Source: Halieaceae bacterium (lineage in GTDB: Bacteria; Pseudomonadota; Gammaproteobacteria; Pseudomonadales; Halieaceae). Taken from it: a stretch of DNA of 38,913 nt. Positions 5,581-27,404 of the stretch are shown one piece after another. The stretch lies in NCBI GenBank assembly GCA_028282105.1, contig JANQIO010000246.1:1-38913 (forward strand), written 5' to 3'. Numbering within the stretch: position 1 is the stretch's first letter; each line of letters starts with the position of its first letter. The position numbers and the translations under genes are program-made. The notes beneath the pieces are model-generated. The model worked only from the letters and a program-made list of their open reading frames with translations, ran no database searches and was not told where the DNA came from.

Positions 5581-5676
5581 TTGAAACTACCGGGCTCCGT
5601 GTGCGGGCATTATCTCCCAGCACCCACCGGCCAGGCCACGCCGGCGGGCAAAATGCCGAAAATCCGCAGCTCGGCG

Positions 5677-9800: not shown

Positions 9801-10059
9801 GTGTTCGCTCTCTTACTGTGATGCAGGTTTCCATCGTCAACGCTCATGCCCTGGGCCATTGACCCCGTGGCTGCGGCTTTATGGCAGCTTCACGCGCCAA
9901 ACACAAGGCGTTCCGTAGTCCACGGAGATTTTACAGATTTCCAGTTGCCTGGCAGGCATAAACCTGCCGGTACAGTCGCCCATACTTCATTTTTGCTTAA
10001 GTCAAATGTGGCCACAACTCCAGGCCGCGGCCTGACGCAGGGTTGTGCCAGGCGTGTGA

Positions 10060-10995
10060 TCAGCGAACACGCTCAATATCGTCAAGCAACTTGTAAAACT
10101 CCTCGCGCTCACGCTGCAAACTGTGCATCTTCACCGTACTGCGCGCGCTCTCCAATAAACCCTTTTCACCACCCTCGAGCCGCAGTCGTCTGGCCTCATG
10201 AAAGGCCGCAGATAAAGCCTCAACAGTTAAGGCAGGCATCAGACAGTTGTCGCGATCTCTACAAAAACTGCGATTGCCTACACAGTCGGGAACGATGGTA
10301 AGCGCCTCCAGTGCCATGGACTCCAGGGCCGGCAGGTAAAATCCTTCCGTGGTATTGGGCAGGAGAATGCATATCTTGCTAGCCGCCATAGCTGCCAGAA
10401 CCTCTTGGCGTGGAACATGCCTGTCATGTACCAGCAGGTCCAGCCCCGGAGCCTGAATCCGTTCCGCCAGCGCCGCTGCAAGCTGTGGTTGCTTGGCGCC
10501 AAGAATGTACAGATCCCTGGTCTTTGGCAGCGTGACGTAGTTGCGCAGGATGGACTGGTCGATACCATTTGGAATGCAGTAGGTCGGCCCGTTCACGCGG
10601 CCTGTCCCAAGTATCGCCTGCTCTACTTCCGGACTGACACAGATTCGGACTGCTCGCTCCGACAAGAAGGAATAAACGTTGCTGGAAGGGTCAGCATGCC
10701 GCACATGTTGGATTAGATTGATTACTGGCTGATCTTCCCTGGAACCCGCTGCCAGATAGGGTTTCCAGTCAACCCCGGCCAGAAATGCCACATCATAGTT
10801 AGCGGGCAGATATGACGAAACGCTTGCCTCCCGCCATTGCTCCCAGGGGTTATCGGCGACGCCGTCCAGCCCCCCCTCCAGGTAGATGCTAGGCGTCCAC
10901 TCCGGGCGTGCATCCAGATGGTCAAAATAGTCGAGCACTTTCTGATGACCACCGGAGTAGCGCAGGTAGTTTCGATAAAAGATCACTGAGCGCAT
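10060..10995 (-). CDS. Short GT4-like glycosyltransferase
   Basis: A 311-residue protein with a GT-B layout. MRSVIFYRNYLRYSGGHQKVLDYF supplies an acceptor loop with Gly-Gly; INLIQHVRHAD and YCIPNGIDQSIL are typical mid-protein strands; LPNTTEGFYLPALESMALEA is the E-X7-E donor signature (about 215-230). It is shorter than usual GT4 enzymes (350-400), mainly in the interdomain region. ATG at 10995. It follows the secreted paralogue gene by 97 bases on the same strand and may be cotranscribed with it. After it a 259-base gap (9801-10059) precedes the GT-C-like gene; I see no confident promoter or terminator there. Confidence 0.78.
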   Translation of the reverse strand: MRSVIFYRNYLRYSGGHQKVLDYFDHLDARPEWTPSIYLEGGLDGVADNPWEQWREASVSSYLPANYDVAFLAGVDWKPYLAAGSREDQPVINLIQHVRHADPSSNVYSFLSERAVRICVSPEVEQAILGTGRVNGPTYCIPNGIDQSILRNYVTLPKTRDLYILGAKQPQLAAALAERIQAPGLDLLVHDRHVPRQEVLAAMAASKICILLPNTTEGFYLPALESMALEALTIVPDCVGNRSFCRDRDNCLMPALTVEALSAAFHEARRLRLEGGEKGLLESARSTVKMHSLQREREEFYKLLDDIERVR

Positions 10996-11092
10996 AGCTA
11001 CGCCTTGTATTCACTCGCGCGGAAGAATCAGCAGGGTGGCTTGCATCGCACAGCAAGTCGAGACAGACACCGGACCAGGAAGCGGCGCCCTG

Positions 11093-12475
11093 CTAATAAA
11101 CGACCGTGTCGGTGCTTCCGTCGAGCAGATTTACCTGCGTAGTGGAAACACTGATTGAACCGACTCTGGCATCTGCGGATAAATTTGCCGAGCACCGACT
11201 TCCCCCGGACAGGCTGACAACTTCGTCTGCCTGCAACACTAGAGTGGTGTTCGGTAACAGCGTACCGCTGGCCGCATCAAGTGGGGTAGCCACAACGCCG
11301 GCCTCTGTTATGAAACTGAAGGCGTAGTCGACAGTTAAATCCCGATGGTTGACCAGAACTATCCTCTGCCGATAGTCGCTAAAAGTCGTGATCTGGGGAA
11401 TCTTCACCACCGTTCCGTTTTGCTCCAGCAGGCCGATGGCCCCGCTGAATTTGGAGGCGCTAAACAGCTGTGAAGGGAACAACGGTTCAGGAACAGCTGA
11501 GGCAAAGTACTCCTCTGACGGAATGACATCAGATTCTCCATCTACCTCCACGCAAAGATTGCTGTAACCCAGGCTACCAAAATCGGCCAGCGTTGCCGTG
11601 GCCGAATCGTAGCTATCAGGATCAATGGAAAGGCTGATGTCCGGGCTGCCGCAATTCGGGTCATCGTCCAGAGTCCAGACACCGAAACTAAAATCGCCCT
11701 TCAGAGCCACCTCCGTGGCTGATTCGTTCACAATGTCCGGCAGTTCCACCTGCGCCCCGTCGCCTGCCGCCAGGATTCCGCTGGTAACCTTGTACTCAAG
11801 GGAGCCGACATTGGCTCGAAGCTCGCCGATACTCGCGGACGTAAATCCTGAAAAGCCCTTGTCGACGTCTGCGGTATTGGTTCCAGGGGTAAAGGAGGCA
11901 GAGGCGCTGGCCGCCGTCCTGATATACGTGGCAAGCTCCCTGCGGTAAAAGCTTGAGTTTTGATACAGCGCATCAGATGGCGTTGAATACAGCTCATAAG
12001 CTATACCTACGGCACCGCTGGCGGGGACGGCCAACTGTCCCAGCGTCAACTCAGCGGTAGCGGTCTGATCGACGGCACTGGTCGCGGTTACAGCAAAGAT
12101 GATGAAGCTGTCCCCGACAGACCCTCCCAGGGAAACAATCACGTCAGCGCTTCCACTATCCACCACCAGTGCTGCCGCGTGGCCCTCCGCAAGAACACCG
12201 TTGGTTAAGGTGTATCTCACATAAAAGCGACTATTCGCCACAAAACTCACGCCCAATTTCGAAACCACGTCGTTGGCGGAACCCGGATCACTGACGTTGT
12301 AGTAGTCCACACCATCTTCCGCACCCTGTGTGATGGCCTTGTCAGAAAGAGTCTCGCGCGCATAGACCGGTGCAGTGGGCACAGCTTCATCGAGGTCTAC
12401 CACAGCAAGAAGCTGGTTCGAGAAAAGCGCATAAAAAGCGCCAATAGCAACCACCGCAAGGGTTCTGGTTCGCAT
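11093..12475 (-). CDS. Secreted Ser/Thr-rich protein, paralogue of the 27485-28882 surface-protein candidate
   Basis: A 460-residue exported protein with no family I can name. Residues 1-24 form a signal peptide (MRTRT, hydrophobic core, cleavage near LLA-V). The rest is beta-rich, acidic and rich in Ser, Thr, Ala, Val and Gly. It is clearly related to the protein at 27485-28882: the shared C-terminal third includes NGT(V/T)V, TTF(S/A)DY(R/N)QR, AASGTL, GGSR and TTQVNL-DxSTDTV. Both have a Cys pair before and inside C-x-VDG (Cys275 and Cys308 here), suggesting a conserved disulfide. A third Cys (428) is unique to this copy. It has more Lys and ends VVY without the other copy's WSVK tail. ATG at 12475, GGAG nine bases upstream. 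Probably a cell-surface or extracellular structural protein, perhaps a variant subunit. Confidence 0.8.
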   Translation of the reverse strand: MRTRTLAVVAIGAFYALFSNQLLAVVDLDEAVPTAPVYARETLSDKAITQGAEDGVDYYNVSDPGSANDVVSKLGVSFVANSRFYVRYTLTNGVLAEGHAAALVVDSGSADVIVSLGGSVGDSFIIFAVTATSAVDQTATAELTLGQLAVPASGAVGIAYELYSTPSDALYQNSSFYRRELATYIRTAASASASFTPGTNTADVDKGFSGFTSASIGELRANVGSLEYKVTSGILAAGDGAQVELPDIVNESATEVALKGDFSFGVWTLDDDPNCGSPDISLSIDPDSYDSATATLADFGSLGYSNLCVEVDGESDVIPSEEYFASAVPEPLFPSQLFSASKFSGAIGLLEQNGTVVKIPQITTFSDYRQRIVLVNHRDLTVDYAFSFITEAGVVATPLDAASGTLLPNTTLVLQADEVVSLSGGSRCSANLSADARVGSISVSTTQVNLLDGSTDTVVY

Positions 12476-13533: not shown

Positions 13534-13896
13534 ATGACCATCGGTCAATTCCTCCTTTGTTTAGGCTGCGTCTGCGCTATTTCGGCGGGACAGCTGCTCT
13601 TCAAGAAGGCTGGCATACTACTTTCAACTGATCACGGCTGGCTGGACTCGCCCGTGCTATTGACAGTGGGCCTGGCTGCGGTCATCTACGGCTCAGCCAC
13701 GCTGCTTTGGATCTACCTGTTGAAGGACGTTACGCTAAGTCGGGCATACATGATATTTGCGCTGAGTTTTGTGCTGGTGCCCATTGCCAGCGTCTATTTT
13801 TATGGAGAGAAGCTCGGCTGGGGTTATGTTGTGGGTACCGCATTGATCCTGCTCGGATTACTCGTCATCTTCCAGAGCGAAAGCCCAGTTCAATAA
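13534..13896 (+). CDS. EmrE/EamA-like small membrane transporter
   Basis: A 120-residue protein with four predicted helices, in the small multidrug resistance / DMT fold: CAISAGQLLFKKAG in helix 1, YGSATLLWIYLLKDVTLSRAYMIFAL across helices 2-3 and GTALILLGLLVIF in helix 4. Helix 1 lacks the Glu14 of EmrE drug pumps. In glycan loci such proteins, like ArnE/ArnF, are thought to flip undecaprenyl-phosphate sugars to the periplasm, which suits the GT-C-like protein encoded next. Starts 9 bases after the methyltransferase stop. Confidence 0.75.
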   Translation: MTIGQFLLCLGCVCAISAGQLLFKKAGILLSTDHGWLDSPVLLTVGLAAVIYGSATLLWIYLLKDVTLSRAYMIFALSFVLVPIASVYFYGEKLGWGYVVGTALILLGLLVIFQSESPVQ

Positions 13897-13918
13897 GGTT
13901 TAGCAGAGAGTCGCCACG

Positions 13919-15937
13919 GTGACAGCCATTTTTCTACCTTCCCTATGCCTCGCACTGTTTACCCTGTCGCTGTTCGGATGGGGCAAGGCCGGCCTGCGAA
14001 TTACAGGAGCCACGCAGCAAGCGTATCCAGCATCCTACGTAGTCGCGTTCGGTATGGCTATGATCGTGTTGTTCGGAGGTGTGCTCAACGCAGCCGACCT
14101 GGCCTATGGCTACGTGCTGCTGGCGCTACTCACATTCGGCTTGATCATTTCCTTTTATATCCTTGCCGCCGCCGTGCTCGACAAAGAGCGAGGCGACGCC
14201 GCATGGCACAAGTTCTCGCGCTTGGCGGATTCTCCTCCTCCGGAATTGCTTTCTTACGTTTTGCTGGCTGGCCTGGCTACATACCTTGTCGTCTTTCTGC
14301 TGCCTTCAGACAACTACAATTTCCACGACGATTACCACTCTTACTTCCCCCGCATAAGCTCGATGCTGGCGACAGGCTCGCTTGGAAACAATCCTCTGGC
14401 GCTAATCGGTGTCGATAGTCTCGGCGCACAGCAGTTCCTGCAAGCCTTTGTCACCAGTCTTTTTGGATTCAAGTACATCAACGCATTTGACGCTGTTTTC
14501 TGCATGATCCTGTGCTGCGCACTGATTATCAGGCTGGCAAGGCTGGCAGCGGCCCATTGGACGCTAGGACTGGCCGGTGTCATCGCAGCCGCCCTTATCA
14601 ACGCTCAGCAGGTCAATGTGTCATCTGTTTTCTCCAGCTCCGCCATGTGCGTTGCGCTTGTCTACGGAGCGCTTGCAGCCGAGGGACAGAGCTACGAAAG
14701 CATACGGCAACGTATATTGCAGTTAGTACCAGTACTCCTGTTTTGCTCTGCCTTGATCGCCCTGAAGCTAATGTCAGCGGTCTTTGCAGCCATGTTCTTT
14801 CTGCTGTTTATGTTTGTATCGGCTCCGGGAGAATCATCTAGATCAGTGTTTCGCTGGCGCGTGTTCGTGGCAGGGGGCTTTTCCGTGACTGCCATCACCG
14901 CACCTTGGTTTCTGGTTCATTGGGTGAACTACAAAACCGCGGTGAAGCTGCTGCTAGACAATCAGCGCTCGGCCTTCTCGGGCAGTGTTGATGTTTCGTC
15001 GAACCTCAGCAGTCTTTCACTTAAGCAATTCTTCTCTGCGCAGGAACTATTCTGGGGGGGAAGCTATCTCGGCTACAACATACTTTTCCTGCTACTCACC
15101 GCTGCCTTTGTATGGCTGGCAGCCGCAGCCATCGTCAGACGGCTCTCAGCACACGAGCGGGTTGCGCTCTCCGTTACCGGCGCTACGGCGCTATCCTACT
15201 CTTTTGCTCTGCTCGTGTTTGAGCCGGACATGGCGCTACGCTACTGCGTACCTTTCCTGATCGCCGCAATCGCCGTGACACCCATCCTGCTATTTACTTC
15301 GGTCACGAGTGTCTCCAGCAGCGGTGAGAAAGCCGAGGCAACAGGCAATCGGAATCTCGCTGCAGTGCTGTCGATAGTGGTGCTGCAGATGGTACTGATC
15401 TACTCGTTTTCAGATTCCTTTGTGAGACGCTTGAAGGTCATGCAGGAAACAAGATCCACGCTTATGTTCCCACTGACAGAGAACTACAAGAACTACACTC
15501 AAGCTACATTTTCACCGCAAAGGGAAACAGCACACAAAAAGATCCAGGAACTCTGTCGACCGGAAACAGGAGTCTTTACCTGGGTCTCAACTGCCTTTCT
15601 ATTCGATCACAGGCGCCACACCATAGTTAACTTCGCCGACCCGGCCACTATGACACCGTGGTTCAACCTACCCACCTCCGGTGACACAGAGTCTCTTCGC
15701 AGGGCGCTACTGGACATTGGCATAGAGTGCATCATTTGGGAGTTTGCTGGTTATGGAATGAAAACCGGCCAGCAGCACCTGGAGGCAGCCAGCTCGCCAA
15801 TCTACATACAGCGCCGACTGGGAGAAGCAGTACTTGCCTTGCGCAGCTCACTCGAAAGCCTGGCAAACGCCAGCACGCTAAAATACAACCGAGACGGACT
15901 CGTTGTCATGGATATTGCCGAACAACAATCACCATAG
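13919..15937 (+). CDS. Integral membrane protein, GT-C-like
   Basis: A 672-residue protein with about 11-12 predicted helices to residue ~505, then a soluble tail of about 165 residues. After the fourth helix a loop with DNYNFHDDYHSYFPRIS carries several acidic and aromatic residues, as in periplasmic GT-C glycosyltransferases and mannosyltransferase-like proteins. The C-terminal soluble part contains ELCRPETGVFTWVSTAFLFDHRRH, resembling the periplasmic domains of such enzymes, but I recognise no defined family. GTG start at 13919, 22 bases after the small transporter stop. With that transporter it could form a lipid-sugar flip-and-transfer pair. A glycan polymerase (Wzy-like) is an alternative. 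Confidence 0.6.
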   Translation: MTAIFLPSLCLALFTLSLFGWGKAGLRITGATQQAYPASYVVAFGMAMIVLFGGVLNAADLAYGYVLLALLTFGLIISFYILAAAVLDKERGDAAWHKFSRLADSPPPELLSYVLLAGLATYLVVFLLPSDNYNFHDDYHSYFPRISSMLATGSLGNNPLALIGVDSLGAQQFLQAFVTSLFGFKYINAFDAVFCMILCCALIIRLARLAAAHWTLGLAGVIAAALINAQQVNVSSVFSSSAMCVALVYGALAAEGQSYESIRQRILQLVPVLLFCSALIALKLMSAVFAAMFFLLFMFVSAPGESSRSVFRWRVFVAGGFSVTAITAPWFLVHWVNYKTAVKLLLDNQRSAFSGSVDVSSNLSSLSLKQFFSAQELFWGGSYLGYNILFLLLTAAFVWLAAAAIVRRLSAHERVALSVTGATALSYSFALLVFEPDMALRYCVPFLIAAIAVTPILLFTSVTSVSSSGEKAEATGNRNLAAVLSIVVLQMVLIYSFSDSFVRRLKVMQETRSTLMFPLTENYKNYTQATFSPQRETAHKKIQELCRPETGVFTWVSTAFLFDHRRHTIVNFADPATMTPWFNLPTSGDTESLRRALLDIGIECIIWEFAGYGMKTGQQHLEAASSPIYIQRRLGEAVLALRSSLESLANASTLKYNRDGLVVMDIAEQQSP

Positions 15938-15985: not shown

Positions 15986-16450
15986 CTAGAGCTGGCGCCC
16001 GGAAACGGACTCGTTAGAATGGGGCGGGACGTCAGACCGCCCCGCGCGGAACACGAGTGCCCTGCTAAGAGAAAACGAGAACAGAAAAGACACCACTGCC
16101 GCCAGGCCGAGCCGCAAGGGTGCATTCAGGCCGGGCCCCGGCAGCAGTGGGCCCAGAACATGCAAGGCTAGTAGCCGAACGGCCAGGGACACCAACACCA
16201 CCGCAAAAAAACCCAGGAAGCGTTTTAACGAGAGTGAAGAACCCTCGTCCCTGAACGTCCAGCGTTGGTGGCCAACATAGTTAGCGCAGGTTGCGATCGA
16301 AAAACCGGCAATGGCAGCAATGCTGTCCGCCGCAGCAAACGCAGCGATGAGTATCCAGGCCACCGCGATATCAACAACCAGCCCGAACAGAGAGACCAGA
16401 AAAAAGCGACGTAGCTCCCTGAAACGGTTGTCAGGCCTGACGACCCGCAT
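15986..16450 (-). CDS. GtrA family flippase-like membrane protein
   Basis: A 154-residue protein with four predicted helices and GtrA hallmarks: RRFFLVSLFGLVVDIAVAWIL in helix 1, ATCANYVGHQRWTFRDEG after helix 2 (the conserved N-Y-X-X-X-R-X-W-T-F block) and FLFSFSLSRALVFR at the end. GtrA proteins are thought to flip polyprenyl-phosphate-linked sugars across the inner membrane for periplasmic transferases. I place the start at the ATG 16450 (MRVVRPDNRF); an in-frame TTG lies 15 bases upstream. It is the last gene of the seven-gene leftward operon, 26 bases after the stop of the GT2 gene that probably makes its lipid-linked substrate. Confidence 0.85.
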   Translation of the reverse strand: MRVVRPDNRFRELRRFFLVSLFGLVVDIAVAWILIAAFAAADSIAAIAGFSIATCANYVGHQRWTFRDEGSSLSLKRFLGFFAVVLVSLAVRLLALHVLGPLLPGPGLNAPLRLGLAAVVSFLFSFSLSRALVFRAGRSDVPPHSNESVSGRQL

Positions 16451-16476
16451 AGCAGAAATTCTCAATCAATCACTGT

Positions 16477-17292
16477 CTACGGATGGTAGCGCCGTAACAG
16501 GGTTGAGAACAGCGTCTTGAGGAGATCAACGTTTCCGCCGAAGGAACTAATCTTGGTAGGTACCGCACCTTCATTCGGGTAGGTGCGAATGGTTGGGATT
16601 TCTAAGACACTTAGGCCAAGCTGGGACGCTCTTACCGTTAGATAAGCGAGTAACTCGTAGTTTACAAATACATCGCGGAATGGGCATACCCGTGCATCGA
16701 GCAGGTAACGGGAAGAGTAGGCCCGATAGCCCTGGGTGGTATCCGTCAACCACTTACGCGCCGCCAGGCTTAGTATCGGCGCATGGATAAAACGAACGGC
16801 AAACCAGCGAATTAGAGGGGTATTGATACCTCGACCGCCCCTGATAAATCTTGAGGCCTGAACATAATCGACGCCTGCATCAAGCGCCGCGGCGAACCGG
16901 GGAATTGTCTCGACCCCGTCTTTGCCGTTTCCGTCTATCGTTATGACACCCGTGTACCCCGCCTCCAGCACCCAAGCATAGGCCATGCGGAGCTGGGCAG
17001 AGAGCTTTCCCGGGCCTCGCTTCACAAGCAGGGCACTGACGCCGAAGGATTCAAGCAAGCCAGGTTCTGTGGAGCCGTCCGTAGAGCCTCCATCGGCTAT
17101 AACAACATCAACTGCGCTCATATGGCCCTGCTCAGCCATTTGCGCGAGCTGCCGGGTCAACCGCTCGCCTTCGTTAATGACTGGAACGACCAGGCAGTAC
17201 TTGCTGCTTTTCGCACGAATACGGAGGCAATCAAACTCAGGTACGCTCCAGTCGACACGATCAATTCGGCCCGGTTGTAAGTTGTTGCTCAT
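16477..17292 (-). CDS. GT2 glycosyltransferase, polyprenyl-phosphate sugar synthase-like
   Basis: About 271 residues without an obvious membrane helix. GT-A motifs: YCLVVPVINEGERLTRQL, VDVVIADGGSTDGST (metal and nucleotide site), ITIDGNGKDG, which replaces the usual DXD/DADGQ motif, and DTTQGYRAYSSRYL, matching the dolichol-phosphate mannose synthase region. It resembles DPM1/GtrB-type enzymes without their C-terminal helices. ATG 17292 overlaps the preceding stop as ATGA, indicating coupled translation; an upstream in-frame codon at 17316 would add only eight residues. It probably loads a sugar on undecaprenyl phosphate for GtrA to flip. Confidence 0.8.
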   Translation of the reverse strand: MSNNLQPGRIDRVDWSVPEFDCLRIRAKSSKYCLVVPVINEGERLTRQLAQMAEQGHMSAVDVVIADGGSTDGSTEPGLLESFGVSALLVKRGPGKLSAQLRMAYAWVLEAGYTGVITIDGNGKDGVETIPRFAAALDAGVDYVQASRFIRGGRGINTPLIRWFAVRFIHAPILSLAARKWLTDTTQGYRAYSSRYLLDARVCPFRDVFVNYELLAYLTVRASQLGLSVLEIPTIRTYPNEGAVPTKISSFGGNVDLLKTLFSTLLRRYHP

Positions 17293-18113
17293 ACCAGCTC
17301 CGCATCCCCATAGCAACGCGAGGCATAAGCGAGAGCGCGCTCAATATTGGGAAGCGTCGCCTCACCATCGTCCAACATCTCAATCGTCACCACCCGGTCA
17401 GGGCAATGCTTGCGAATAGCTGCAGCCACACCGGCATGTTCGGCGCCATGGTCTCCCAGCACCTTCAGCCCAGGCTCACTGGCATGAATATGCGCGACAA
17501 GCTCAGCACAATCCGCCAATACCATTTCGGGGTCCTCACAGTTTAGCGTCAATGCGCCTACGTCCAATTGCATTCGAATCGCAGGGTGATTTGTCGCGCG
17601 CACGATTTCTGCTGTCGATGCCGCATCAGTCATGAAGTTTGCCCCGTACTGCACAGGGTTCGGCTCGAGACAGATCACGGTGTCGTACTGTATTGCGAAG
17701 TCGCCCAGCCTCCTGAAGAAATCGCAGGCAAGCCCAGAGACTTCCGCATCCTCCAGACCGCTGCGGTCTCTATTACGTGGAGACCCGAAGACAAGATATC
17801 GAGCACCCAGACCGCCTCCCACCCGGCAGACCTGCTGCAGGTACGCCAACATCCGTTCCTGTGTGGCGGCGTCTCCAAAAACGTTCAAACCTTCGGTGCC
17901 AAACAGAAGCGATTGCATGCCAACTATCTCTACGCCTCTGTCAGCCCAGGTTGCCCGCACCCTGGTGATACCGTCGTTGGTCGCATCGGGGATACTGTCA
18001 AAGTACTTACCTGGCGCAACGTCGATCGCATCCGCACCGAATTCAGAGAGCAATTGAGCGACTTCGCCGTCATACTCCGGCGACCAGGCGATGTTCGAAA
18101 TCGAGATACGCAC
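17289..18113 (-). CDS. Sugar phosphate isomerase/epimerase-like TIM barrel protein
   Basis: A 274-residue protein of the xylose-isomerase-like TIM barrel family. Candidate metal ligands at strand ends are Glu150 (ICLEPNP), Asp184 (MQLDVGAL), His210 (AHIHASEP) and Glu245 (VTIEMLD), the usual four-ligand divalent-metal pattern. Members act as isomerases, epimerases, dehydratases or endonucleases, so the substrate cannot be named; an operon with an SDR and an FAD oxidoreductase points to sugar remodelling. GTG start at 18113, five bases after the SDR stop; its stop overlaps the GT2 start. Cytosolic. Confidence 0.8.
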   Translation of the reverse strand: MRISISNIAWSPEYDGEVAQLLSEFGADAIDVAPGKYFDSIPDATNDGITRVRATWADRGVEIVGMQSLLFGTEGLNVFGDAATQERMLAYLQQVCRVGGGLGARYLVFGSPRNRDRSGLEDAEVSGLACDFFRRLGDFAIQYDTVICLEPNPVQYGANFMTDAASTAEIVRATNHPAIRMQLDVGALTLNCEDPEMVLADCAELVAHIHASEPGLKVLGDHGAEHAGVAAAIRKHCPDRVVTIEMLDDGEATLPNIERALAYASRCYGDAELV

Positions 18114-18118
18114 CCTGT

Positions 18119-18898
18119 CTATCGGTCCCGGGGTTCCGACTGCGCGTAGGCGCGAACAGCCTGCAGCGACTCGCGTCGGCTGTATTGGTAATCTCCGGTT
18201 CCCCCCAAAACTTCTGCGTAGATGCTCCGCATATCGTAGGTCGCCGGATTGCCGTCCAGGACATTCTCAAAGCGCATATTGAATCCCTCGACTGCAAGGT
18301 CCGCCACACTCACCGGCTCGGACGTGAGGTGCAGAAGCCGCAGCCCGCAATCAACTGCGCGGGAGATGTCGAAGAACAGATTGATCATCGGGTAAAACTG
18401 GAACACGCCACGCGAATCAATAAGCTGAACATTATTGTCATGCAGAAAATCGTAGATGACGTTCTTCTTCAAACCCGGGCCCACCAGCCCGGGTAAGCGC
18501 ACGATTAGGTGCTCATCAAAACGATCAGCGACGAATCGCTCCAGCAGGCGTCGGTGGAGTCCGTAGCTGTGCAGGCCTACCTCCTCCACAGCACTGTTCT
18601 CATCGACACCCACAGGGCTGAGGAATACATCAACGGTGCTAATAAGTATGAACCTGCGGGTATCCAGTGAATCGAGGCTGGAGATAAGGGTATCGATGTT
18701 GGCGCGGTCGGCTATGGGATCCCGATTGGCAATCCACTTCGCGGCCGGAGCCGCGGCGCAATAAACAGTATCCCAGGACTGCCCACGCAGTTCTGTCATA
18801 TTGTTAGAGCGAAAGTACCCGGCAAACTCCGCCTGCCGCTGTAACATGGAGCCGACGAATCCGCTGTACCCAATCAGGGCGTCTTTATTACTGGCCAT
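18119..18898 (-). CDS. Atypical extended-SDR (NAD-dependent epimerase/dehydratase-like)
   Basis: A 259-residue Rossmann protein, shorter than most sugar epimerases (300-340). It has GYSGFVGS (10-17), the G-X2-G-X2-G cofactor loop, ISTVDVF (86-92) for the active-site Ser/Thr, and LPGLVGPGLKKNVIYDFL in the substrate region. The usual Tyr-X3-Lys is Tyr112-X3-Arg116 (YGLHR), an unusual replacement of the catalytic Lys that could lower or alter activity. Candidate roles are reduction or epimerisation of a nucleotide sugar or free sugar. ATG at 18898 overlaps the GT-C-like gene stop by 11 bases. Confidence 0.75.
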   Translation of the reverse strand: MASNKDALIGYSGFVGSMLQRQAEFAGYFRSNNMTELRGQSWDTVYCAAAPAAKWIANRDPIADRANIDTLISSLDSLDTRRFILISTVDVFLSPVGVDENSAVEEVGLHSYGLHRRLLERFVADRFDEHLIVRLPGLVGPGLKKNVIYDFLHDNNVQLIDSRGVFQFYPMINLFFDISRAVDCGLRLLHLTSEPVSVADLAVEGFNMRFENVLDGNPATYDMRSIYAEVLGGTGDYQYSRRESLQAVRAYAQSEPRDR

Positions 18899-20366
18899 TG
18901 CTGTTACACGCCTTCTCTTGAAAGGAATCGTCCATCACCAGATAAGGCTGCATATACGCCAGGTAGGCCTGCTTCCCCTCCTGGCTCATTCTTGCAAAAT
19001 TCTCTGGCAGCAGCGCCGCCTTCATACCCGTAGTTGCACCATACCGTGCAGCAAAGGTCGGCTGTGAAAGAAAAATAAGAGTGCTATCAGGATGCAGTAT
19101 GTGACACTTCTGAATAGCTTCCAGGAGCCAGGCATTGCGATCAAACTCACCTGCCTGAATGCGCTGGTAGTTGCCCCACGCTGCCTTCCCCAGGTCCGCA
19201 CCGCCGGTGAGCAGGCTTCCAAGCAATGCGACCACCATGATCGCCTGCATTACTGGTCTGGCATCAGGAGAAAACGACAGCGCAACGACGTAGCAGCTCA
19301 ACAGCAGGAATGCTGAGAAGTAGCGCTGGTCGAAGTAACCGGTCAGCAAGTAGGGTGCCAATGAGGCACCCGCCAAAACCAGGGCAAGTCCGCTCCATGC
19401 CAGACGCGTCAGGATCATGTGTCGAGCTGCGAGCGGGACCAGCAGTAGCAGACCTAGTATGGGCGGAAAACTCGACATGGAACTGTACAAGGCGCCAAGC
19501 AGGCCCGGCACATTACCAAAGACGCGCAGTAACCACTGACCTGGCGCGTCGAAGGCTGTCGCGACCGCGCTGGCAGGGTAATCTGTGACAAATGCAGGCG
19601 AGGCCGAGAGTGCCACCCAGCTGTTGTCCGATGCCCAGAATCTACCGAAATGCAGCAGGGAGAACGCTATCCAGGGCGACGCTCCGATAACAAGCCCAGC
19701 GACCCAGCGAGCAGCGTTACGCCTCTGGCTTGGATCCAGCAGAGTCATACCCAGGACGAACAGTATCGACACCACCAGATAATCAAATCTCGTCAACGCA
19801 GCGAGGCCAAGACAAACGCCGCCGAGCAAAGGACGACTGCCCTGATAGCACGTCAGAGCGAGTACTATCCAGAGCAACGCCAAAGGAATAGAGCGGCCAG
19901 CGAACACTTCCGTCATGTACGGCGGCCAGAGCACAAGTCCGGTGCTGATCACGATAGCCGTAAGCGCCGGAACCCCCATACGGATTGCCTGCTGGGCGCT
20001 GAGCAGCCAAACCACCGCCACCAGAAAGACATTCATCCAGATCGCCGCCAGAGGGGAGGCGCCAAATACCTGGTGCAGAAACGCCAGCGCTACCGGATAG
20101 GCAAAGGGGAAGGAGACGGAGTGGGTATCGGACACGTAGCTCCGCCAGGTATTGAAGACGTAAAAATCACCACCGAATATGGTCTGCGCCAATTCGTAGT
20201 ACGCCCAACTGTCTGGGGTAAAAAACGAGATGTTGAGGGCATATGCCGCCATAGCAAACAGCAGCAAAATCGAAAGACTACCGGAAGCCAATATCACCCT
20301 GACCGATAGCGGCGTGCTGCGCGCCTCCAACCATCGATCAAAGGTCTGCAAGTATTCAGCCGGCAT
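18888..20366 (-). CDS. Integral membrane protein, GT-C / ArnT-like
   Basis: About 492 residues with 10-11 predicted helices to residue ~405 and a C-terminal soluble domain of about 85 residues. The loop after helix 1 contains FFTPDSWAYYELAQTIFGGDFYVFN, with an acidic residue where GT-C enzymes keep the catalytic Asp, and YMTEVFAGRSIPLALLW recalls GT39/ArnT-type transferases that move sugars from polyprenyl phosphate in the periplasm. The ATG at 20366 has GAGG six bases upstream and overlaps the FAD oxidoreductase stop by 11 bases; an in-frame TTG at 20393 is less likely. Within the operon it is the probable transferase for the sugar loaded by the GT2 genes and flipped by GtrA. Confidence 0.7.
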   Translation of the reverse strand: MPAEYLQTFDRWLEARSTPLSVRVILASGSLSILLLFAMAAYALNISFFTPDSWAYYELAQTIFGGDFYVFNTWRSYVSDTHSVSFPFAYPVALAFLHQVFGASPLAAIWMNVFLVAVVWLLSAQQAIRMGVPALTAIVISTGLVLWPPYMTEVFAGRSIPLALLWIVLALTCYQGSRPLLGGVCLGLAALTRFDYLVVSILFVLGMTLLDPSQRRNAARWVAGLVIGASPWIAFSLLHFGRFWASDNSWVALSASPAFVTDYPASAVATAFDAPGQWLLRVFGNVPGLLGALYSSMSSFPPILGLLLLVPLAARHMILTRLAWSGLALVLAGASLAPYLLTGYFDQRYFSAFLLLSCYVVALSFSPDARPVMQAIMVVALLGSLLTGGADLGKAAWGNYQRIQAGEFDRNAWLLEAIQKCHILHPDSTLIFLSQPTFAARYGATTGMKAALLPENFARMSQEGKQAYLAYMQPYLVMDDSFQEKACNSNGQ

Positions 20367-21474
20367 GGATGTCCTCGAGCGACAGCTTTTCAATTACGTC
20401 ATATACGTTATCGATCTTTCCACCGAGGATTGAGTAATACCCCGGCATACTGGCACTTTTCTCAAATAGTATGGGCCGGCCATCATTACCTTCGTTTTTT
20501 ACCAGCACAGTCTTTACTTCAAGCAGCGAGTCTTTCTGTGTAGAGTCGACAAGAGTCGGTATGTAACGCGAGGCGTCACGGAGCATGCGATCAACACGGG
20601 AAATCCCCTGGTAGCTCTGTAGCCGCGCGTAGGGATCTTCCCCCGCCCGGTCATACCAAAAAAGGTGCGGCGTATAGCGCACGTGAGACAGAGAATGATA
20701 ACCGCTCGGGGGAAACGGCATTACCGAAAAGTAGGGTCCATCCATGACGGTTACACCAATCGACCGCAGGGCCGGTGGCACCTTAATAATGCCCATTTCT
20801 GCGATCTCATGCTTGAGCTGCACTGAAACGGGTTGCGCGTCGCCACCCACCTGATTGAGACCGCTGTAGGTGCAATTAAAGATATAGCGGGCCCTTAATG
20901 GCTCCAAGCTATCTCCACGGCCGGTCTCCACTACCTCGGCAGTAGTCCCGCCATCAGCGGGCCGGCATGCCACAACACGCTGATTTAACCTTACCTCAAT
21001 CTCCAGGTCCGCAAGCCGCTGCATTGCCCAGGATTGCAGCTGGGCCGCGTTGAAAGCGAACTCTTCAACAGCAAAGACCGCCTCGATCAGCCTATTGTCA
21101 AACAGGTCAAGGTGTTCGCCGGACGCAGGCTCAAGACGGGCGCCAATCTCCTTGCAAAAGCGCTGGAACTGTCGCGCGTTCACTTTAGAACCCTGGCGGG
21201 CTATGGCATACAGCTTGGTGAACCCTGTCTCAACCGCAAACGGAAAATCAGCAACAAATTGGGGCAGGTTCACACGACTCCGGTATGCAGTGACAAAGCT
21301 CCGAGGGTAGTGATACCCATTGTGGATTCGCGCCTGATTATTGAATGACGCGCGCGATAACAGGCGGGACTCACGTTCCAGGATGCAAACGTCTCGCAAC
21401 CCTCTCGTTTCCTTCAGGTAGCACGCGATCGACACCCCAAAGAAACCACCGCCAATGACCAAGGCATCAAACAC
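20356..21474 (-). CDS. FAD-dependent oxidoreductase (DAO family)
   Basis: A 372-residue protein opening FDALVIGGGFFGVSIACYL with the Rossmann FAD-binding motif GGGFFG (8-13) and an acidic residue ending the second strand (ILERE). The rest fits the D-amino-acid-oxidase-like fold, with an ILGGKIDNVYDV segment near the C-terminus as the second FAD contact. Substrate unknown. Sitting between a lipid-sugar transferase and a GT-C-like protein, with an SDR and an isomerase downstream, it may oxidise a sugar or an amino-sugar substituent. GTG start at 21474, three bases after the GT2 stop. Cytosolic. Confidence 0.78.
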   Translation of the reverse strand: MFDALVIGGGFFGVSIACYLKETRGLRDVCILERESRLLSRASFNNQARIHNGYHYPRSFVTAYRSRVNLPQFVADFPFAVETGFTKLYAIARQGSKVNARQFQRFCKEIGARLEPASGEHLDLFDNRLIEAVFAVEEFAFNAAQLQSWAMQRLADLEIEVRLNQRVVACRPADGGTTAEVVETGRGDSLEPLRARYIFNCTYSGLNQVGGDAQPVSVQLKHEIAEMGIIKVPPALRSIGVTVMDGPYFSVMPFPPSGYHSLSHVRYTPHLFWYDRAGEDPYARLQSYQGISRVDRMLRDASRYIPTLVDSTQKDSLLEVKTVLVKNEGNDGRPILFEKSASMPGYYSILGGKIDNVYDVIEKLSLEDIHAG

Positions 21475-21477
21475 GAG

Positions 21478-22512
21478 CTAGGAACTCGAAGCTATCTCGC
21501 CTGCTTCGCCGACAGACTCGGGACTTGAAGCTGCGCTGCCAACCTCCACGTTTAGCCTTTCACGTCGCGTGATGACAGCGCTGGTGAACTCTTCGGAGAC
21601 ATAGTAGTCGGGCGCATTTGAAGCAAGCCTTGCCATATGGATCACGTACTCACCCAGCACAAAAAGCACCAGGGAAAACAGAAAGAACATTCCTGATTGC
21701 TGCAGGGATAGCGTCACCCAACCCGGAGCGACCTCCACCTTCAGCAAGGCCACCGCAACCACGTATATGGAATAGATGACATTGACGACCGCTCCAAACA
21801 GGCAGAGCAGAGTCACAGCACGCATGGGCCCCAAGGTGCTTGACACCAGGATTCTCACGCCTCGATCGATATCCTCAATCAGGCTGCTGCTGCGCTTCCT
21901 TCCAGAGCTTTCATAAAACACCGTAGACTTGCGGAATCCCGACGTCGCCGGCAGCCACGTGTAGGCCAGCCCGGACGCGGAGTGCTGCACCATGTAGTTG
22001 ACCACGGTTCGGCTCAATACTCTGAATACCGGCATTTCCCTGTTCGCGTCAATTCCCAGAAGTCTGCTTACCAGCACGCCGAACACCTTGCGCAGGAAAC
22101 TATAGACTGGCGATTTTTTGGCGGACTGGCTGCCCACGCCAAAGACAACATCCGCCCCCTCGACGGAGGCCTCCAGCAGCTGCGGTAGTGCCTGAAGGTC
22201 ATCGCGCGCGGGATCTACGACTGCCACGTAATCCCCAAGTGCATTCTCCACTCCGGCCCATGCCGCAAGATCTATTTCGACTCTCTTCGCAAGTCGGTAA
22301 ACCTGTAGATTGGGGACACCCTCTTCGCGGCACAGGGACTGGAGAAGCTCGATCGAATGATCCATGGATCCATTGTCGATAACGACGATCTCATGATCTG
22401 CCACACAGCTTTGGGCAATATCGCTGCAGCTTCGCAGGACGCGCTCAAGGTCATCATGAAGGTTATCGGCAACGAGAATGATCGAGAGAAATATTTCGTG
22501 TGGAGTACTCAC
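21478..22512 (-). CDS. GtrB-like GT2 glycosyltransferase with membrane tail
   Basis: A 344-residue protein: GT-A domain (IFLSIILVADNLHDDL, EIVVIDNGSMDHSI, VAVVDPARDD) followed by two predicted helices at about 233-265 and 275-300, the topology of GtrB/DPM-type polyprenyl-phosphate glycosyltransferases. The DXD motif is weak (VDPARDD), so catalytic competence deserves doubt. Residues 318-344 form a Ser/Glu-rich tail. GTG start at 22512 with AGG six bases upstream. First gene of the seven-gene leftward operon. Confidence 0.78.
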   Translation of the reverse strand: MSTPHEIFLSIILVADNLHDDLERVLRSCSDIAQSCVADHEIVVIDNGSMDHSIELLQSLCREEGVPNLQVYRLAKRVEIDLAAWAGVENALGDYVAVVDPARDDLQALPQLLEASVEGADVVFGVGSQSAKKSPVYSFLRKVFGVLVSRLLGIDANREMPVFRVLSRTVVNYMVQHSASGLAYTWLPATSGFRKSTVFYESSGRKRSSSLIEDIDRGVRILVSSTLGPMRAVTLLCLFGAVVNVIYSIYVVAVALLKVEVAPGWVTLSLQQSGMFFLFSLVLFVLGEYVIHMARLASNAPDYYVSEEFTSAVITRRERLNVEVGSAASSPESVGEAGEIASSS

Positions 22513-22994: not shown

Positions 22995-23951
22995 GTGAGG
23001 GTGTATGTTGTCATACCTTGCTTCAAGGTCACGCAGCACATTCAGCAAGTTATTGAGCTTATAGGCGGCGAAGTTCAGGGAATCGTTGTGGTCGATGACT
23101 GTTGCCCTGACGCGTCTGGCGACTATGTCGCCGACAATGTTGAGGATCCCCGGGTGACCGTGCTTCGACACGATAGCAACCAGGGTGTCGGCGGCGCCGT
23201 TATGACGGGTTATCGCCACGCGTTATCAGAGGGAGCGGATATCTGTGTGAAAGTTGACGGGGATGGCCAGATGGACCCACGGTTGATCCCGGGATTGATC
23301 GCTCCTATCGTCAATGGGCTGGCCGACTATGTGAAGGGCAACAGGTTTTTCTCTCTCTCAGACGTCTCCACCATGCCGAAGGCGCGGCTGTTTGGGAATA
23401 CCGCTCTGAGCTTCCTCACCAAGCTGTCCAGCGGCTACTGGAGCATTTTCGACCCCACCAATGGATTCACTGCGATTCACCGGGCAGCACTGGGCACCCT
23501 GCCACTACACAGAATTGACCGCCGCTACTTTTTTGAGACCAGCATGCTTATTGAGCTTGGAGCTGCTCGCGCCAGGGTCGTGGATATGCCAATGAAAGCG
23601 GCCTATGGAGACGAGGTCAGCGGACTCAGGATCAAGGATGTACTGTTGGAGTTTGCCGGAAAACACGCCCGCGCCATTTTCAGGCGCACACTCTACCAGT
23701 ACTATCTTCGGGACTTCTCCCTGGCATCGCTGCACTTGCCACTGGGGATCCTGTTGACAGTGTTTGGGGTCGTATTTGGCGTTTACGCTTGGTCCGTGTC
23801 AGCAGATACGGGGGTGCCCGCGACCACAGGTACGGTGATTCTATCCGCCTTGCCGACTCTGCTGGGCGTGCAATTCATCCTCAGCTTTTTTGCCTTCGAT
23901 ATCGCCAGTGAACCGTCGGTTCCGCTGCAGTCATTTGGAGCAAAGGACTGA
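22995..23951 (+). CDS. GtrB-like GT2 glycosyltransferase
   Basis: A 318-residue protein with full GT-A motifs: VYVVIPCFKVTQHI, GIVVVDDCCPDASGDYV, a glycine-rich SNQGVGGAVMTGYRHAL, the DXD region VKVDGDGQMDP and a FDPTNGFTAIHRAAL block as in DPM1/GtrB. Two predicted helices at about 248-270 and 283-303 anchor it in the inner membrane. It should transfer a sugar from a nucleotide donor to undecaprenyl phosphate. GTG start at 22995 with AGAGGAG about 8 bases upstream. It is alone on the plus strand and converges on the sulfotransferase gene nine bases further on. Confidence 0.85.
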   Translation: MRVYVVIPCFKVTQHIQQVIELIGGEVQGIVVVDDCCPDASGDYVADNVEDPRVTVLRHDSNQGVGGAVMTGYRHALSEGADICVKVDGDGQMDPRLIPGLIAPIVNGLADYVKGNRFFSLSDVSTMPKARLFGNTALSFLTKLSSGYWSIFDPTNGFTAIHRAALGTLPLHRIDRRYFFETSMLIELGAARARVVDMPMKAAYGDEVSGLRIKDVLLEFAGKHARAIFRRTLYQYYLRDFSLASLHLPLGILLTVFGVVFGVYAWSVSADTGVPATTGTVILSALPTLLGVQFILSFFAFDIASEPSVPLQSFGAKD

Positions 23952-24786: not shown

Positions 24787-27357
24787 CTATCTCTCCACAG
24801 CAACCGTCAGATTTTCAGATCGCCACTGCTTCCAAACACCTTGCACCGCCTCATGAAACTGCTGCGCAAAGGCATCGGCATCCATCAGCGGTGAGGCGAT
24901 CAGTCGATCTCGCAAGCCCGCCCGGGTAGCAGCCAGAGATTTCGTGTCCGCGGCCTTCTCGGTGGCAACACGGACGTAGTCCTCAGCATCCTCTGCAATC
25001 CAGTCAGGCATGCCCAGGTTATTCATAATGCTCTCCCCCGCATGAGAGAGAAATCGCTCTCCGCGCCGGGTAAGGACAGGCACACCCATCCAAAGTGATT
25101 CAAAGCTTGTCGTACAACCGGTATAGGGGAACGGATCCAGGCCGATATCCACACGGCCGTATGATTCGAGGATATGCTCCCGGGACCGGGACGCCTCGAA
25201 CATAAGCCGTTCTTCCTCAACCCCCAGCGCCACAAAGTCGCCCAGCAGCTTGTCGCGGTATACCGGGTCGGTGAGCACCTGATTCTTGAGCAACAGCCTG
25301 GCGCCCTCTACGGACTTGAGCACTTCAGCCCACAACTCTATAACCTTCCGGTTTAACTTCGCGAAGTTATTGAAGCTGCCAAAGGTGATGTAGCTATTCT
25401 CTGCAGCCGGCAAGGTGGACACGTCCGGGGAGCCCTGGGGCTGCGAGAGGCACTGGTAGCTATGGGGAAGCACCAGGGGTTTCTCTACAAAATGGGCTTG
25501 CTCATCCGGCGGTGTCACCCATGGGTCGCCGATGATGTAGTCGATAGCGTCTAGACCCGTGGTCGAAAGATAGCCCAGCCAGGTAATCTGCACGGGTGCG
25601 GGCTTACGGGCGAAGGTGCCCATGCGGTTATGCGACGTGTGGCCAGATACGTCAAGCAGCACGTTTACGGCATCACCGTGGATCTTCGCCGCCAGCTGCT
25701 CAGGAGTATCGCGGTAACAAAGATCCCATTTGTCGGCCATTCTGGCGAAGCGCTTGCTGGTGTCATCCTGCACGACCACCGTGGAGTACAGGTAAAGTTC
25801 AACGCCCATGGCCGCCAGCTTGCCCAGCACGGACTCCAGGAAAAAACCAACCGGGTGATCCCGCATATCCCCGGAGACGATGCCCAGACGCAGGGGGGCT
25901 TCACTGTCTCGCGCAACTGTCCAGGAAGTATAGCGCGGCGTGTCGCTGTGGAACTTTGTCGCCCACCCCCTGGTGATATCCAGCAGCTCCTGGGCTGTGA
26001 CCTCAGGATTGTAGAGGTGGGCAAAGATCCAATTGCTGTGGTGCTCCGAGCTAGCCAGCGGAGACGCCAGTGCGCTGTCATAGTAGTGCATGGATTGGTC
26101 ATAGACGCCGGTCAGTGAACTGATACCGGCCAGGTTTAACTGGGCGGAAAAATAGTCGGGCGAAGACTCCAGAATCGACCTGTAGATGCCTATCGCCTCG
26201 GCAAAGCACTTGGCGTTCTGGTAGCAGATGCCCAGGCGATTCTTAATTGAAAGATCATCAGGCCTTTGCTGTGAGCCTGTCTTGGCAAACTCCAGGGCCT
26301 GGTCGATTTTCTGCTGCCCCATCAGGGCGTCAACCAGTGTGTTGTAGGCGCCGATCATGGACTTGTCCATAAGGATCAGCCGACGGCACTCCCATTCCGC
26401 CTGCTGCAACTCACCTTCCGCCAGCAACACCTCGGTCAGGGCCGTCATCGCGGGTTTGTGCCCGGGATTAATGCCTAGTGCTTTCTTCAGTAGTTGCCGC
26501 GCTTTTTCATAGTGACCGCTTCTGGCGGCAATGCGCCCCAGCAGGACGATAGCGGCCACCGCGTCACCCTTGAGCGACAGCGCCTGGCGGGCATGGCGTT
26601 CCGCCTGCATAACATGGCCAAACTCCATGCATGCCACGCCCGCGTTGATGTGGTGAACCGCTTCCGCGGGATTGACCAGCAGCGCCTTCTCGTGGGCGGC
26701 GAGACTGGCAGCCGCCATGGATTTCTCCATATAAACGACACCGAGCTGCCCCCAGGCCTCGTCGTGATGAGGGTCGAGATTGACCACCAGGTTAAATTGC
26801 TGGATGGCCTCATCCAGCGCCCCCAGGTTAGAGAGCGCCAACGCATAGTAGTAGCGTGCAGACAGGTTGGCATCGTCCTGCGTAAGTGCATGCTGGCTAC
26901 GCTGCTTCAGTTCAGCGTAACGCTCGGCGCTAGCGAGCTGACGAAGCTCCTCAATGCTACCCGCGGCTTTGGCCACAGGACCGCCAGCTTGCAGTGCAGA
27001 CTTGAGCTCCTGCAGCGCTTCCGAGCCTGGCAGTCTGGCGAGCCCGTCGCTGACTACGCCAAGCGCTTGTGATGGGCTACCACTTTGAACAAGGTGATTG
27101 GCAAAATAGCCGACGAAGTCGGCATTGTCCGGTTGCAGCCTAACGGCTTCCTGCAGCAACGGTGTCGCATGGGCCTGGTAGCCCGCGGCGCGGGCGATGC
27201 GACCCAGGTAGTGATAGGCGCCGGCATGTTCCCGATCCTGGGCAATAATCTCCTTCAATAGCCGCTCCGCGGTCGCGCTATCGCCAGCGTCGATAAGCTG
27301 GCGCGCCCGGGCGAACGCAGTATCAACTGGCTGCTTTTTACTACTCTTCTTGGGCAT
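24787..27357 (-). CDS. TPR-containing O-GlcNAc transferase-like protein (GT41 / SPINDLY)
   Basis: About 856 residues. The N-terminal half (about 10-430) is a run of tetratricopeptide repeats, for example LDEAIQQFNLVVNLDPHHDEAWGQLG. The C-terminal half (about 476-837) is the SPINDLY/OGT catalytic domain: MRDHPVGFFLESVL with His501 near the OGT catalytic His, GHTSHNRMGTFARKPAPVQ, WLGYLSTTG, FGSFNNFAKLNRKVIELW with Lys667 in the UDP-contact strand, and DPFPYTGCTTSFESLWMGVP. Family enzymes transfer GlcNAc or related sugars to Ser/Thr (or Asn, HMW1C-type) of proteins in the cytosol. The ATG at 27357 (MPKKSSKK) is preferred because an extended -10 overlaps the TTG at 27396; no clear ribosome binding site. 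It lies directly downstream of the Ser/Thr-rich exported protein, the obvious candidate target. Confidence 0.87.
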   Translation of the reverse strand: MPKKSSKKQPVDTAFARARQLIDAGDSATAERLLKEIIAQDREHAGAYHYLGRIARAAGYQAHATPLLQEAVRLQPDNADFVGYFANHLVQSGSPSQALGVVSDGLARLPGSEALQELKSALQAGGPVAKAAGSIEELRQLASAERYAELKQRSQHALTQDDANLSARYYYALALSNLGALDEAIQQFNLVVNLDPHHDEAWGQLGVVYMEKSMAAASLAAHEKALLVNPAEAVHHINAGVACMEFGHVMQAERHARQALSLKGDAVAAIVLLGRIAARSGHYEKARQLLKKALGINPGHKPAMTALTEVLLAEGELQQAEWECRRLILMDKSMIGAYNTLVDALMGQQKIDQALEFAKTGSQQRPDDLSIKNRLGICYQNAKCFAEAIGIYRSILESSPDYFSAQLNLAGISSLTGVYDQSMHYYDSALASPLASSEHHSNWIFAHLYNPEVTAQELLDITRGWATKFHSDTPRYTSWTVARDSEAPLRLGIVSGDMRDHPVGFFLESVLGKLAAMGVELYLYSTVVVQDDTSKRFARMADKWDLCYRDTPEQLAAKIHGDAVNVLLDVSGHTSHNRMGTFARKPAPVQITWLGYLSTTGLDAIDYIIGDPWVTPPDEQAHFVEKPLVLPHSYQCLSQPQGSPDVSTLPAAENSYITFGSFNNFAKLNRKVIELWAEVLKSVEGARLLLKNQVLTDPVYRDKLLGDFVALGVEEERLMFEASRSREHILESYGRVDIGLDPFPYTGCTTSFESLWMGVPVLTRRGERFLSHAGESIMNNLGMPDWIAEDAEDYVRVATEKAADTKSLAATRAGLRDRLIASPLMDADAFAQQFHEAVQGVWKQWRSENLTVAVER

Positions 27358-27395
27358 AACCGGAGGGAAAGAACTGAGGAACTTAAACGCCGCCA

Positions 27396-27404
27396 ATCAT
27401 AGCA
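27396..27404 (-). promoter_or_regulatory. Extended -10 promoter for the OGT-like gene
   Basis: Minus strand TGC-TATGAT: a TGn extension plus a hexamer matching TATAAT at five of six. No good -35 is seen, as expected for an extended -10 promoter. It lies just beyond the terminator of the surface-protein gene and would start transcription about 30 bases before the ATG at 27357. Confidence 0.45.

Follow-up and report, generated by a model that had tools for sequence, protein, structure and literature searches.

Four described systems provide the background against which to view a seven-gene operon in DNA from a Halieaceae bacterium (assembly GCA_028282105.1, contig JANQIO010000246.1; the whole stretch analysed, positions 1 to 38,913, is termed the window). 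In the GtrABC systems of Salmonella and Shigella O-antigen side-chain glucosylation, a GT2 glycosyltransferase (GtrB) loads sugar onto polyprenyl phosphate, GtrA serves as flippase and a GT-C enzyme is the transferase. The oxidase DprE1 and the reductase DprE2 act on a lipid-linked pentose, converting the ribose of decaprenyl-phospho-ribose to arabinose, with a proposed small flippase and GT-C enzymes acting afterward (Rv3789 and GT-C arabinosyltransferases belong to this system), as set out in PMC11127046. That paper also offers a precedent for a small or MATE flippase with a GT-C enzyme, and describes the Citrobacter youngae O1/O2 system (ORF12–ORF15, GT136) with its loader, flippase, GT-C protein and auxiliary epimerase of the short-chain dehydrogenase/reductase (SDR) type; its authors say there that no other epimerases are known to them in O-antigen side-chain glycosylation systems. 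Lastly YcjQ, YcjR and YcjS of the Escherichia coli 3-keto-glucoside pathway are two dehydrogenases and a TIM-barrel epimerase (PMC11543891). The Halieaceae operon is envisaged as a surface-glycosylation cassette whose donor sugar would be edited while on its lipid carrier, or immediately before it gets there, and then flipped and transferred, a reading for and against which we see the scales as level. A search of titles and abstract starts in the open-licence literature found no description of this gene set, which is weak evidence of absence; the nearest papers were PMC11127046 and, for YcjR, PMC11543891.

The seven open reading frames (ORFs) are all on the minus strand, tightly packed between positions 15986 and 22512, and in order of transcription encode a membrane GT2 protein (G), a flavin adenine dinucleotide (FAD) oxidoreductase (F), a GT-C-like protein (E), an SDR (D), a xylose-isomerase-like TIM barrel (C), a soluble GT2 protein (B) and a GtrA protein (A). 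Going from A to G the intergenic gaps are +11, −28, +5, −11, −38 and +3 bases, figures that rest on first-start ORFs, so that with the true starts uncertain the exact overlaps are too. The original prediction, made from the sequence alone, was right in describing an operon of seven genes that overlap or are separated by short gaps. As to its gene labels, those of A, B, C, F and G are upheld by Pfam matches, while the Pfam scan of the seven proteins gave no match for D or E, the SDR label leaning on motifs and a weak match to RmlD and the GT-C label on a low-confidence model. No NCBIfam model reached its cut-off in any of the seven.

Does such a set of genes belong together? With F as query against one genome per species (84,980 species), the best 80 of 87 relatives yielded 80 loci, of which 50 have full flanks (at least 17 kb), and a partner was counted if it lay no more than 8.5 kb from F. 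All five of B, C, D, F and G are present together in 42 of the 50 full-flank loci and in 58 of all 80; in every one of these 58 five-core loci F and G adjoin in core order, and in 57 D and C do. The five genes form a linked core, and their association is not chance. As controls, seven other genes of the window (H, I, M, N, O, P and Q) were sought over the same distance from F, and none of the 80 loci gave a match at E ≤ 1e-10, the best one short of the cut-off being that of H in L078 (5e-10); the control gene at 7563–9800 did match near F, in 6 of the 80 at the same cut-off. Since the loci were found with F, the linkage counts are conditioned on it, and the gene-by-gene surveys of plasmids and genomes considered below provide the independent check. 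A small flippase, of either GtrA or SMR/EamA type, and a fast-diverging protein with multiple transmembrane (TM) segments often complete the core. Judged by record title, the hosts include Pseudomonadota, Cyclobacteriaceae, cyanobacteria, Anaerolinea, Gemmataceae, Ignavibacteria, Lentisphaerae, Parcubacteria and a TM7 single-cell genome, with many metagenome bins.

F (20356–21474, minus strand), the proposed sugar oxidase, matches PF01266 (E 3.3e-20). Its model, with a predicted local distance difference test score (pLDDT) of 91.8, has as best fold match the E. coli glycerol-3-phosphate dehydrogenase GlpD (2r45; Z 31.8, root-mean-square deviation 2.9, 350 aligned, identity 16%), and since glycine oxidase, L-2-hydroxyglutarate dehydrogenase and others come within a few Z units of GlpD, the fold does not fix the substrate. 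The motif counts here and below come from alignments of the window protein with hand-picked relatives (40 of 81 for F, 33 of 67 for G, 37 of 61 for C, 36 of 63 for D and 33 of 50 for B), chosen for spread before motifs were counted and from lists already filtered by length and score. NQxRxHxGxHYP is invariant in all 41 aligned F proteins, and the N-terminal GxGxxG of the DAO fold is present, its G8, G10 and G13 being found in 41 of 41. With this FAD-binding fold and GxGxxG, F is a flavoprotein of the DAO superfamily. UDP-galactopyranose mutase was considered for F and rejected, the matches being short, N-terminal and with E ~6e-4.

Directly upstream is G (21478–22512, minus strand), which matches PF00535 (E 2e-10) and, by profile and over its whole length with the TM region included, Synechocystis sll0501 (PDB 5eke, E 1e-51), which we take to be a GtrB; ArnC is also matched. 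What sets G apart from both is that DxD has been lost, being present in none of the 34 aligned members, and that in its C-terminal part R231, G264 and W265 are invariant. G as an active GtrB was rejected for want of DxD, with the caveat that D104, near the lost motif, is kept in 31 of the 34. Going by sequence, G is probably a non-catalytic scaffold or membrane partner of F.

C (17289–18113, minus strand) matches PF01261 (E 2.9e-15). Its E150, D184, H210 and E245, invariant in 38 of 38 aligned proteins, align with the metal site of solved ketose 3-epimerases, in which such E-D-H-E residues act as metal ligands. Among its PDB matches are ketose 3-epimerases including D-tagatose 3-epimerase (the best, 7.5e-15) and YcjR, a 3-keto-D-glucoside 4-epimerase (6wn6, 3.6e-10), and the list also holds IolI and AsbF. 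C is a xylose-isomerase-like TIM barrel with an E-D-H-E site as in YcjR-type epimerases and is the proposed keto-sugar epimerase. D (18119–18898, minus strand), the proposed keto-sugar reductase, is without a TM segment. All 37 aligned proteins keep the motifs GxxGxVG, ST, YGxxR and KN unchanged, Arg occupying the classical SDR Lys position; there is a weak match to the dTDP-4-dehydrorhamnose reductase RmlD (8g22, E 5e-5). That D is an ordinary extended SDR was rejected, given its lack of a Pfam match and its YGxxR.

The GT2 domain of B (16477–17316, minus strand; PF00535, E 2e-5) is not accompanied by any TM segment, such segments being counted throughout by a simple hydropathy scan. Its profile matches DPMS (5mlz, E 4e-15), ArnC and sll0501, to which 7 of the 8 PDB sequences reaching E ≤ 0.01 belong, and in place of DxD there is D128-G-N130-x-K132-D133 (DGNxKD), invariant in 34 of 34. 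In five loci (L050, L083, L093, L085 and L117) B and a multi-TM region share a single reading frame, the region of L085 being homologous to E, and in L108, a Psychrobacter plasmid, B is fused to G. As none of the aligned G proteins has DxD, the soluble DPMS-like B is the better candidate for polyprenyl-phosphate sugar loader, and from its sequence the likelier active one. In L108 the open frame for the G-B fusion is at 5410–7188; the incomplete PLSDB gene table is blank over its first part.

A (15986–16465, minus strand) is a small GtrA-family protein with four hydrophobic segments (PF04138, E 8.1e-20, 71.6 bits against a cut-off of 26.1) and the proposed flippase for the lipid-linked sugar. 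When it was scanned together with all 30 small membrane proteins of other cassettes, 22 of the 31 matched EamA and 8 GtrA, so two flippase families fill one slot. E (18888–20393, minus strand), the proposed periplasmic transferase, has 10 hydrophobic segments, and the 23 best PDB matches of its model (pLDDT 57.5) comprise 21 GT-C enzymes or oligosaccharyltransferase chains (ALG12, ArnT, PimE, AftD and others) and two chains of GPI transamidase, which we take to be GT-C-like. Relatives of E occur in L042, L066, L069, L085 and L089, and near F in 4 of the 80 loci (E ≤ 1e-10). An alignment of the window protein with three E relatives and 37 of 73 listed large neighbours finds the large membrane partners barely alike (mean column identity 9%; PMT_2 in 1 of 41, an acyltransferase domain in 2 of 41), divergence of the kind to be expected if the acceptors differ. 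A further large membrane protein is encoded by the control gene mentioned above (7563–9800, minus strand): 745 aa with 10 hydrophobic segments and no Pfam match, its relatives near F including that in L037 (33% identity over 725 aa, between F and D) and those in L078 and L074. Their position near F means that it may be a second GT-C protein for the same donor.

From this we infer an order of reactions, a lipid-linked stage for the editing, a redox direction for F and for D, a role for G, and the kind of sugar and acceptor involved. B would move a hexose, or similar sugar, from its nucleotide onto polyprenyl phosphate. F, held at the membrane with G, would then oxidize a ring hydroxyl to a ketone, passing the electrons to quinone or oxygen; C, as a metal-dependent epimerase, would invert the carbon beside the ketone, and D would reduce the ketone with NAD(P)H, the net change being one or two stereocentres and the product a rare epimer. 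GtrA would flip the lipid-linked sugar, a task that would fall to an SMR/EamA protein in most other cassettes having such a gene, and E would attach it to an extracytoplasmic glycan or protein. F, C and D look more like a set that oxidizes, epimerizes and reduces a sugar already made than like builders of one. It is speculation that lipid-linked glucose oxidized at C3 would yield products of gulose, allose or altrose type. The 64 proteins scanned among cassette neighbours (58 of 88 listed, and six of L110) are a mixture of glycan and other functions and did not reveal the sugar.

How does the operon compare with its described counterparts? With GtrABC it shares a GtrA flippase and would share GT2 loading of polyprenyl phosphate and a GT-C type of transferase, and it has three more conserved enzymes, F, C and D. 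Whereas GtrB is membrane-anchored with an intact DxD, G lacks DxD and B has DGN and no TM segment; the likeness of E to the GT-C transferase is that of a 10-segment protein whose low-confidence model has GT-C-type best matches, none at E ≤ 0.001; and in place of the sufficiency of three genes, all five core genes keep company in most full-flank loci. With DprE1/DprE2 the common ground would be an oxidase and a reductase alongside a small flippase and a GT-C protein. However, DprE1 is a VAO-type flavoprotein and F is of DAO type, the cassette would add a metal-dependent epimerase, and a GT2 loader would replace the phosphoribosyltransferase. Set beside the SDR reductase DprE2, D is SDR-like by its GxxGxVG and YGxxR motifs. 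With the C. youngae system the cassette would have in common a loader, a flippase, a GT-C protein and an SDR, but none of the seven proteins has a Pfam match to its phosphoribosyl loader or MATE flippase, GT2 and GtrA standing there instead, and the cassette would split epimerization among F, C and D. YcjQ/YcjR/YcjS likewise combine two oxidoreductases with a TIM-barrel keto-sugar epimerase, but belong to a cluster for carbohydrate import and metabolism that is not tied to a lipid carrier; YcjQ and YcjS are of other families than F and D. Membership of GtrABC fails on two features, of DprE1/DprE2 on one (the family of F) and of the pentofuranose systems on the families of loader and flippase, with the outline similar to all. 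By analogy, the chemistry would parallel that of DprE1/DprE2 and YcjQ/YcjR/YcjS with different enzyme families, in a GtrABC-like frame.

The original prediction had seen here a load, flip and transfer system with three extra enzymes, and the conservation of F, C and D as partners in 42 of 50 loci supports it. Its likening of the operon to GtrABC holds for GtrA and for the overall frame, not for the membrane GT2, in place of which the soluble GT2 is the better candidate loader. Of its suggestion that the extra enzymes build or oxidize the sugar, oxidation is retained in the proposed scheme, and editing takes the place of building. The outcome that it named as refuting, genes scattered in relatives, has for the most part not been seen, the core being linked in those loci and in plasmids. 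The set, for which it knew no named pathway, is not unique: all seven kinds of gene recur, in an order differing from that seen here, on a Sagittula and a Roseobacter plasmid, namely D, C, G (found by profile), F, GtrA, B and one for a multi-TM protein, which has 12 segments in the former and 9 in the latter.

When 72,556 plasmid records were searched with each gene singly, F and B matched an identical set of 10 (both at E ≤ 1e-30); D and C each matched 12 (E ≤ 1e-10), namely these 10 and two Mesorhizobium plasmids. In both of the latter an FAD oxidoreductase gene adjoins D. The F profile recognizes that of the first plasmid, and on the second C is set apart and inverted, beside insertion elements. 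G matches only two of the 10 at E ≤ 1e-10, its profile recovering it in the Roseobacter, Cereibacter and Sagittula plasmids. The Psychrobacter plasmid, of just 10.8 kb, has D, C, an SMR protein, F, the fused G-B and a 7-TM protein together with mobilization and replication genes. On the second Mesorhizobium plasmid (M. huakuii, L124) the insertion elements lie, within 5925–9990, between the inverted C and the FAD oxidoreductase and D genes, an arrangement that is perhaps a decaying copy of the set.

In genomes the surveys score few candidates each, which makes absences soft. Across 369 genomes of the class, F is in three (E < 1e-100) and B in three, two being common to both, and D is strong in those two. 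Across 369 of the phylum, F is in four and B in five, the four all within the five; in the fifth (G628), B is on a contig with D, C and a 4-TM protein, and as that contig is 3.5 kb long, the assembly may just lack F. Only one (G024) of 144 relatives of the window genome has a strong F match, in a G-F-G arrangement on a contig of 6.9 kb. For its host lineage the cassette is untypical; it is sporadic and probably acquired, and probably a self-contained unit that moves horizontally. When 5.1 kb of a Citrobacter cassette (L069) was used to search the DNA of 5,426 E. coli genomes at near identity, nothing was found, distant relatives being outside such a search, and among 50,697 phage records there was no relative of F at E ≤ 1e-20.

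Within the cassette some genes appear to keep closer company than others. Over the 58 five-core loci, ranks of similarity to the window proteins, a crude and reference-based measure, correlate (Spearman) at 0.87 for C and D and at 0.65 for F and G, and weakly, at 0.23 to 0.43, for pairs across these two units; in 15 loci D has at least 52% identity while F has at most 49%. This suggests, at the level of sequence, that F-G, D-C and B are exchanged as units. Four F-G loci without D that were inspected have another nicotinamide cofactor (NAD(P))-type enzyme near: an aldo/keto reductase in L110 and L067, a Gfo/Idh/MocA protein in L104 and an enzyme of NAD-epimerase type in L079. That fits oxidation followed by reduction with replaceable reductases, subject to the caveat that glycan clusters often contain NAD(P)-type enzymes; no substitute was identified in L051 or L054, with neighbours partly scanned. 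L110 has, at 6777–11343, G, F, a GT2 gene, the aldo/keto reductase and a GtrA-like gene but none of D, C and B, and may be a simpler form of the epimerizing set with two enzymes.

A number of observations weigh against the scheme as drawn. The editing may take place on a nucleotide sugar rather than on the lipid. At the level of single proteins, the nearly invariant D104 so close to the lost DxD means that G is not proven inactive; DGN in place of DxD makes B no textbook GT2 either; Arg for the usual Lys leaves the reductase activity of D uncertain; and E, with its poor model, has no PDB match at E ≤ 0.001, the best being 1.7e-3. Several cassettes have no flippase-size gene adjoining the core, and B shows no correlation in similarity rank with any of its core partners (Spearman 0.03 to 0.12). 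The core is incomplete in 8 of the 50 full-flank loci: L051 and L067 hold C, F and G, L054 holds B, F and G, L079 F and G, L085 B, C, D and F, and L100 C, D, F and G, while L102 has D and F at the cut-off with C and G present but weaker, and L104 has F at the cut-off, followed by a GT2 gene. The losses in L051, L054, L085 and L100 are without explanation, their neighbours having been partly scanned. Three of the 10 plasmids are from Cereibacter and so not independent. In the class survey there are weaker F matches in G265 and G355 (1e-49 to 1e-56) and a weak D match in G163, no cassette partners being seen on inspection of G265 and G163; G271 combines G and F with a different GT2, an aldo/keto reductase and a GtrA-like protein and lacks D, C and B; and G150 has B without F. 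In the phylum survey F-G and D-C-B of G758 are on two separate contigs of ~7.5 kb.

Of the alternatives, the one that survives best keeps the same cassette and has the trio of F, C and D at work in the cytoplasm on a nucleotide sugar or a sugar phosphate, with B loading the finished rare sugar and G an accessory; we consider it unlikely, though a serious contender. Most bacterial sugar-editing pathways do run on nucleotide sugars, and D has no TM segment and its weak resemblance is to dTDP-4-dehydrorhamnose reductase. However, F is beside the membrane protein G without exception in the five-core loci, its best fold match, GlpD, is membrane-bound, and there is no nucleotidyltransferase in the conserved set, NTP_transferase being found in 2 of the 64 neighbours scanned. 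That the product is instead an oxidized, branched or ring-altered sugar, C being an isomerase or lyase and D a dehydrogenase or dehydratase, strikes us as improbable. The TIM-barrel family has other activities, as IolI and AsbF among the matches of C illustrate, TIM-barrel enzymes that perform beta-elimination on 3-keto glycosides exist, and the YxxxR of D is non-classical, but most solved relatives of C are epimerases of ketoses or keto sugars, and the simplest view of an oxidase whose gene is linked to that of an NAD(P)-type enzyme is that of an oxidize and reduce pair, as in DprE1/DprE2. Ordinary GtrABC side-chain glucosylation, with G the GtrB and with C, D and F from an unrelated pathway nearby, was already disfavoured and is very hard to credit: the whole-length GtrB match of G, its one nearly invariant Asp and the presence of GtrA and a GT-C-like protein speak for it, and the lack of DxD in all 34 aligned G proteins, the co-occurrence of C, D, F and B across plasmids and loci and the fusions of B to multi-TM proteins and to G speak against. 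Scarcely to be entertained is a polyprenyl-phosphate adduct other than a sugar-edited donor, such as one derived from glycerol phosphate, which has the top fold match of F to GlpD in its favour and, against it, their low identity, the nearness of other DAO-fold enzymes and a TIM barrel and SDR that point to sugars.

The operon has further glycosylation genes and secretion genes around it in the window. On the plus strand, a small protein of EamA type, the 672-aa protein that comes after it (13534–15937 for the two), which has 14 hydrophobic segments, and, beyond the operon, an AglJ/PpgS-like GT2 with two TM segments (22995–23951) possibly constitute a second, ordinary three-component glycosylation system around it. 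Beside the cluster is a TPR protein with a GT41 domain (Pfam Glyco_transf_41; 24787–27396, minus strand), which suggests protein glycosylation. Adjoining the glycosylation region at 29159–38902 (minus strand) are type II secretion genes, for the secretin, T2SSK, N-methylation-motif proteins, T2SSF and T2SSE.

Returning to the scheme of editing at the lipid carrier, a bolder form of it, possible in our view with the chances against it, makes the cassette a general counterpart of DprE1/DprE2: a sugar is parked on polyprenyl phosphate, rewritten by a trio of enzymes on a dead GtrB (a ‘pseudo-glycosyltransferase’), then flipped and transferred, the exchangeable units being F-G (oxidase and scaffold), D-C (reductase and epimerase), B with the GT-C protein (loader and transferase) and, as a fourth, a GtrA or SMR flippase, which bacteria of many phyla may combine for rare surface epimers. 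It leaves the question of why a GT2 protein without DxD stays so faithfully beside a flavoenzyme. If the editing scheme is true, an editing set larger than the Citrobacter one, with three enzymes, moves as a single cassette, also on a small plasmid, through many phyla, F plus B would be a search signature for it and its enzymes would serve for making rare lipid-linked sugars, and it would explain how unrelated bacteria acquire rare surface sugars via few genes.

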